From Chloroflexota bacterium (GTDB lineage: Bacteria > Chloroflexota > Anaerolineae > UBA4142), in assembly GCA_016219275.1 (NCBI GenBank), contig JACRBM010000040.1, forward strand, positions 1 through 64,000: DNA of 64,000 nucleotides, written 5' to 3'. Shown here piece after piece: positions 43,480-43,644 of this stretch (position 1 is the first letter of the stretch; each line of letters starts with the position of its first letter). The position numbers and the translations under genes are program-made. Under the pieces are notes generated by a model that worked only from the letters and a program-made list of their open reading frames with translations, had not been told where the DNA came from and made no database searches.

Positions 43480-43644
43480 CTCTCATCTCCCAGAATCGTT
43501 CTCTGCCGGAATTGGCACCGAGTTTGGAAGTTGGAGTATGGATGTTGGAAATTGGTGTGTCCAATCTCCAATCTCTATGCTCCAACTTTTAATCCGGTTG
43601 CCGAGGCTTCACAGGGCCGGTCCCTCCGCCTCTCTGGATAAGAG
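43480..43644 (-). promoter_or_regulatory. SAM-I (S-box) riboswitch aptamer with repeat-extended P3
   Basis: On the minus strand P1 is CTCTTATC pairing with GATGAGAG. The conserved core reads AGAGAGGCGGAGGGACCGGC, then CCTGTGAAGCCTCGGCAACC, and after P3 GGTGCCAATTCC and the P4 region. All are canonical SAM-I elements. P3, usually short, is extended by a stem of about 28 bp (43528-43588) made of TTGGAGATTGG-type heptads and their complement. It controls metY and probably metX-metW. Confidence 0.93.
43528..43588. repeat. Heptad hairpin forming the riboswitch P3 arm
   Basis: AAGTTGGAG..AAATTGG (43528-43555), loop TGTGT, CCAATCTCC..CTCCAACTT (43561-43588). The two arms match along about 28 positions with few mismatches. 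Same unit type as the four-helix cassette ends. Confidence 0.9.

Follow-up and report, generated by a model that had tools for sequence, protein, structure and literature searches.

Repeat-built P3 arms in SAM-I riboswitches of a Chloroflexota lineage and their probable origin from dispersed hairpin elements

The metY leader of a Chloroflexota bacterium contains a SAM-I riboswitch in which P3, usually a short stem-loop, is a 77-nt hairpin made of tandem heptads. Comparison with related leaders and with the rest of the genome makes it probable that P3 of an ordinary SAM-I riboswitch was lengthened by a dispersed hairpin element, and that such elements have recurrently settled in this insertion-tolerant helix. 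The window analysed is a 64,000-nt stretch of contig JACRBM010000040.1; its genome is designated G000, and relatives are numbered from G001 onwards.

RF00162 (SAM-I) was the sole Rfam family matched in the window by cmscan. The aptamer (S box leader) of metY lies at 43480..43644 on the minus strand and scored 81.5 bits (gathering score 44.4), with model positions 1-108 complete, in agreement with the canonical aptamer claimed in the initial annotation. All core motifs are intact, and folding yields P1, P2 and P4 together with a long P3. On the same strand, the aptamer is followed by an intrinsic terminator as expression platform (43441..43464; 9-pair stem, 6-nt loop, T tail) and by metY (41974..43263), an ORF assigned to the O-acetylhomoserine sulfhydrylase type by sequence recognition. 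Its start was read as the ATG at 43263, with AAAAGGAG just before it. Between the terminator and this start, the leader carries a second TTGGARN-type hairpin (43283..43388, minus strand; tandem repeats at 43283-43325, hairpin at 43305-43365, period 7). A full-length model match, the expression platform and a following methionine/SAM gene give the locus the attributes of the SAM-I class. Judged by its sequence, it is a full-length, ordinary SAM-I riboswitch with P3 lengthened by a repeat, and SAM binding and switching are predicted.

The P3 insert comprises the 77 nt from GGCAAC to GGTGCC (43520..43596, minus strand; 5′ arm 43588-43561, loop 43560-43556, 3′ arm 43555-43528) and reads CGGATTAAAAGTTGGAGCATAGAGATTGGAGATTGG-ACACA-CCAATTTCCAACATCCATACTCCAACTTCCAAACTC. 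TTGGARN heptads stand opposite their complement. Of the stem of about 28 bp described initially, the 28 positions per arm were recovered, but the fold contains 24 actual pairs, arranged around a 5-nt loop as 9 bp, 1x1, 2 bp, 1x1, 2 bp, 2x2 and 11 bp. The fold of the insert has a z value of -7.1, with none of 200 shuffles equally good, and the arms have a period of 7 (z = 5.0) that none of 300 dinucleotide shuffles reached. The insert fills nearly all of P3 past its base. The proposed element would be a palindrome of about 60-90 bp whose arms consist of imperfect 7- or 8-bp tandem repeats.

Orthologous metY leaders differ in the presence of this hairpin. The initial annotation had suggested a covariance-model match and a comparison of P3 lengths among orthologues; the RNA fits SAM-I, and in the leaders of G001 and G002, whose MetY proteins are 83-84% identical, the P3 loop is free of repeats and measures 13 and 12 nt, respectively. 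Neither the same long P3 in repeat-free orthologues nor a failure of the SAM-I model was found when sought. P3 arms of 68-103 nt, forming hairpins of several kinds, are present in the metY leaders of G000, G003, G006, G010, G011 and G012, that of G003 being only weakly periodic.

G000 has three SAM-I riboswitches in total, and P3 is built from repeats in all three. The two further riboswitches precede a cystathionine gamma-synthase-like gene and mtnA, both named by sequence recognition, and have P3 arms of 85 nt (TTGGARN) and 57 nt (TTACCAN). A significant period of 7 is present in both, and these two unit kinds serve all P3 arms of the genome. A sample of 60 relatives, mostly metagenome assemblies, gave about 100 SAM-I matches, each of which was read individually, with P3 borders set by motif. 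Within the same family, P3 reaches at least 50 nt in 19 of 21 arms measured. Of these long arms, 18 of 19 are significantly periodic, with lag 7 in 15, lag 8 in three and no other lag; two more long periodic arms (L044, L045) lie beyond the 21 measured. Unit types in the family are TTGGARN, TTACCAN and CAGTRGT (7 bp) as well as TAGTCNNN and ATAGTTNN (8 bp). All five long P3 arms of the neighbouring family are periodic. Of the 63 P3 arms from the remaining families in the class, 24 are long, seven of these being periodic and 17 without repeats. Repeat-free long arms also fold well; they are compatible with old elements after repeat decay or with independent lengthening. In G030, 7-bp units occur in P3 arms that are 38 nt long.

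A pattern scan of 84,980 genomes (CCTCGGCAACC, then two TTRGARN units within 33 nt) returned ten contigs, eight of them from Chloroflexota and all of these SAM-I. The contigs from Winogradskyella and Cellvibrio were rejected as SAM-I on checking. At one further locus (L046; G013:C825, from base 1903), the 5′ half of a SAM-I aptamer and a TTAGAGA repeat hairpin are followed directly by another reading frame, the aptamer 3′ half being missing. Either recombination among the repeats or a join made in assembly would account for this arrangement.

Long P3 is frequent in this lineage. Aptamers of at least 150 nt make up 20 of 22 in the family, 26% in the rest of the class and 12% in the phylum outside it, a count that omits the truncated G004 and G013 matches. 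Such a frequency would be expected if the long repeat P3 were under selection, be it for tuning co-transcriptional folding, as an RNase III processing site or for protein binding, perhaps by the four-helix IVP protein. The restriction of the change to P3, with the P4 side unaffected, and the good folding of repeat-free long arms point the same way. We nevertheless regard selection as an unlikely cause, because P3 of this metY leader is no longer than 12-13 nt in two relatives, neither sequence nor unit type is conserved, and the P3 hairpins of G006 fold no better than dispersed copies (few inspected).

The hairpins found in P3 also occur elsewhere in the genomes. The window P3 has 60 similar stretches in G000, of which about 11 are near full length (about 5-73 of 77) with 71-77% identity; palindromes match both strands, so that there are fewer places than matching stretches. 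One dispersed copy lies in the window at 6081..6147 (no strand assigned). It matches positions 9-73 of P3 at 75% identity and forms a hairpin of period 7 with complementarity at 22 of 26 positions. The mtnA P3 hairpin of G006 has 56 stretches in that genome, many spanning positions 4-69 of 74 with 70-90% identity, and the flanks of the copies are unrelated. The octad P3 of G001 has 73 stretches in its own genome, most often spanning 11-84 of 88, with up to 85% identity; some family genomes gave further matches and three gave none. Both the G006 and the G001 family are thus multi-copy palindromes at unrelated sites, with defined ends that coincide with the P3 insert. No obvious target duplication was seen by eye in ten hairpin copies. 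Two P3 hairpins of G006, from its mtnA and metY leaders (L034 and L038), are 90% identical over 67 nt, which indicates either that one source was copied recently or that the two riboswitches underwent conversion.

In 464 kb of G000 (the window plus a 400 kb sample), 47 hairpins of period 7 or 8 bp, with many unrelated units, were detected; a few of the sequences that pass the filter are C-rich palindromes or direct repeats. Those in the window include 9453-9516 (unit GCGAATA), 23107-23162 (TCGATTT), 51296-51352 (GACGGCA) and 52618-52678 (TTCAGTA). Many unrelated families of 7-bp-period hairpins therefore exist within one genome. TTRGARNTTRGARNTTRGA has 157 forward and 157 reverse matches in G000, compared to 11 and 6 for the control. 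The idea that P3 is fed solely by the commonest genomic repeat was dropped: by exact pattern, AGTGGTN is far rarer in G006 than TTRGARN/TAGTY, and the P3 element has tens of copies there despite the rarity of this exact unit. A rule that the G-rich arm comes first is followed by most hairpins, not all.

Three observations count against settling of a dispersed element. No target duplication was seen, the copies in G000 share just 71-77% identity with the P3 insert and none of them qualifies as a recent donor, and the repeat-free long P3 arms of other families (17 of 24) show that length can arise otherwise. Growth in place would need no incoming element: a short P3 stem would be extended by slippage and hairpin-templated copying, and the same process would yield the genome-wide hairpins. 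Array units are often near-identical, as from slippage, one genome holds many unrelated unit types, and the 38-nt arms of G030 could be intermediates. This origin seems improbable to us, however, as the P3 hairpins of G006 and G001 match dispersed copies at 78-90% identity along nearly their whole length, including the loop region, and as the two G006 P3 hairpins share their 90% identity despite different downstream genes.

The unit types at P3 vary among relatives. Every family genome read has a long P3 in its mtnA leader, with units that are unrelated to each other: TTACCA in G000, ATAGTTNN in G001, TTAGAGA in G002 and G012, TAGTCNNN in G005 and G009, and CAGT types in G004, G006 and G010. 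In the neighbouring family, a single genus has mtnA leaders with TTGGAGA, CAGTNAT or GTCGGATN repeats. The same P3 site is either empty or occupied by elements with unrelated units across relatives. In quick trees with several weak branches, unit type switches at least nine times among 18 leaders (MtnA) and repeat presence at least four times among 20 leaders (MetY). P3 arms of different genes in the same genome have a mean normalised likeness score of 0.33 (10 pairs), compared to 0.17 between genomes (518 pairs), and none of 5000 label permutations matched this within-genome excess. Across genomes, belonging to the same gene does not raise the score (0.171 for same-gene vs 0.186 for different-gene pairs). 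The similarity score, like the periodicity test, is a simple measure. P3 repeat type tracks the genome rather than the gene. A single ancient insertion, inherited by all and later homogenised per genome by conversion among riboswitches or other copies, would explain the uniformly long mtnA leaders and the within-genome likeness expected from conversion, but is very doubtful, given that short metY P3 occurs inside the family, that 7-bp or 8-bp repeats at the same site amount to replacement and that G005 has an octad P3 and a heptad P3 in separate riboswitches.

Recurrent settling of dispersed hairpins requires that P3 be accepted as a landing or persistence site. We infer the act of insertion itself from comparison among relatives. 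P3 would tolerate an insert because its outer part points outwards from the SAM pocket and has no requirement beyond forming a stem, and an incoming sequence that is self-complementary would simply prolong the helix. In one genus, a paralogue with short P3 keeps all six distal pairs of this helix at 100%, and five of them show double changes; the outer P3 is constrained for pairing only and free in sequence. The aptamer part 3′ of P3, including P4, measures 33-68 nt in two families, and its longest examples lack such a period. Repeats are confined to P3, the other aptamer arms being free of them. The initial proposal, in which a repeat entered a position able to accommodate a hairpin, gains support from the orthologue comparison and from the dispersed hairpin family. 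Switching should persist in the window riboswitch through the SAM-stabilised P1 and the terminator (43464-43441). The long P3 would delay the aptamer 3′ half by roughly 65 nt of transcription and might be a target of RNase III; each of these effects may be neutral or mildly modulating.

Other structured RNAs were also inspected. A TPP riboswitch of G016 (L213:1501-1695) carries a GGCGATG-type hairpin in its variable arm; it measures 195 nt, compared to about 110-138 nt in others, and scores below the Rfam cut-off. In RNase P RNA, no heptad hairpins were seen by eye among 15 relatives. P12 arms of several relatives (L116, L118-L125) contain, by eye, another palindrome, of the CCCTCTCC kind or the CACCCAACCTCTCC...GGAGAGG kind, and the RNase P RNA of G001 has a CATCCTGAGC-type palindrome in one arm.

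The P3 units are, as initially noted, those around a four-helix gene of the same window. This IVP gene (1678..2130, plus strand) matches PF05635 with 93.1 bits (HMM match 1734-2054) and has a TTGGAAN array on one side and the complementary array on the other. G000 has five PF05635 four-helix genes above the cut-off and three below it (L191-L193). All five above the cut-off (that of the window, L186, L187, L189 and L190) are bracketed by inverted 7/8-bp arrays that are complementary to each other across the gene. Each gene has its own unit: TAGTC octads, CAGTGAA/GTATTCA, TTGGAAN (window), TTTCTGA or AATTGCG. These genes stand in operons, for example hisA-IVP-hisF (neighbours named by sequence recognition). 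None of the three genes below the cut-off has arrays. Two-sided arrays occur in 0.9% of random windows, a generous comparison, as random positions include coding sequence. In Winogradskyella psychrotolerans (Bacteroidota; L146:3900-4465), an IVP gene lies between cysN-like and cysQ-like genes and is bordered by GTGATGCG octads and their complement, which reach into the N-terminus of the cysQ-like frame.

In Coxiella, the intervening sequence (IVS) forms a hairpin in helix 45 of 23S rRNA; its terminal stem has 28 bp, and a four-helix S23p gene lies inside (PMC4990558). Because the IVP genes of G000 lie between inverted arrays of the like 7/8-bp kind, the P3 inserts look like gene-less counterparts of IVS-type elements, and the likeness to rRNA intervening sequences drawn in the initial annotation gains support from these arrays. 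In both systems, a self-complementary insert replaces the loop of a peripheral helix and is linked to four-helix IVP genes, which stand between like arrays here; the insert is absent from orthologues in our case (77 nt vs 12-13 nt in G001 and G002). The host RNA, however, is a riboswitch in an mRNA leader and not 23S rRNA, and the window insert is gene-less and has arms of 7/8-bp tandem repeats. Tentatively, the 7/8-bp-period hairpins and the array-bracketed IVP genes could form one large mobile IVS-like class in Chloroflexota and beyond, in which the IVP protein or an RNA-level process would place gene-less copies into permissive stem-loops, SAM-I P3 being a recurrent site and the TPP arm having been used once.

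Compared with SAM-I riboswitches in general (RF00162), the window riboswitch shares the core motifs, P1-P4, the downstream terminator and the association with methionine genes, and differs in having a 77-nt dispersed repeat where P3 is usually a short stem-loop. Heterocystous cyanobacteria reportedly have heptanucleotide STRR repeats in RNase P RNA (Vioque 1997, title as cited in PMC2858038). By analogy, both cases would involve short tandem repeats that are dispersed in the genome and lie inside a structured RNA, whereas the phylum and the RNA are different and the present repeats are palindromic and include 8-bp besides 7-bp units. MITEs, REP/REPIN and Rickettsia palindromic elements are short multi-copy palindromes found at many unrelated sites. 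The hairpins described here share these properties but have arms of tandem repeats and many unrelated units per genome. Papers on repeats inside riboswitches were sought and none was found, a weak negative given limited journal coverage. The general idea has precedents in the IVS of rRNA and, by title, in the STRR of RNase P RNA. What appears to be new is that repeats of unrelated sequence have come to occupy one spot in a peripheral helix of a riboswitch over and over across a lineage.

Recurrent refilling of P3 would amount to a natural insertion-tolerance experiment on a sensor RNA, and dozens of natural variants are available to relate P3 length to SAM response. The P3 repeats may also provide a handle on how short-period hairpins spread in bacteria and on their tie to IVP genes.
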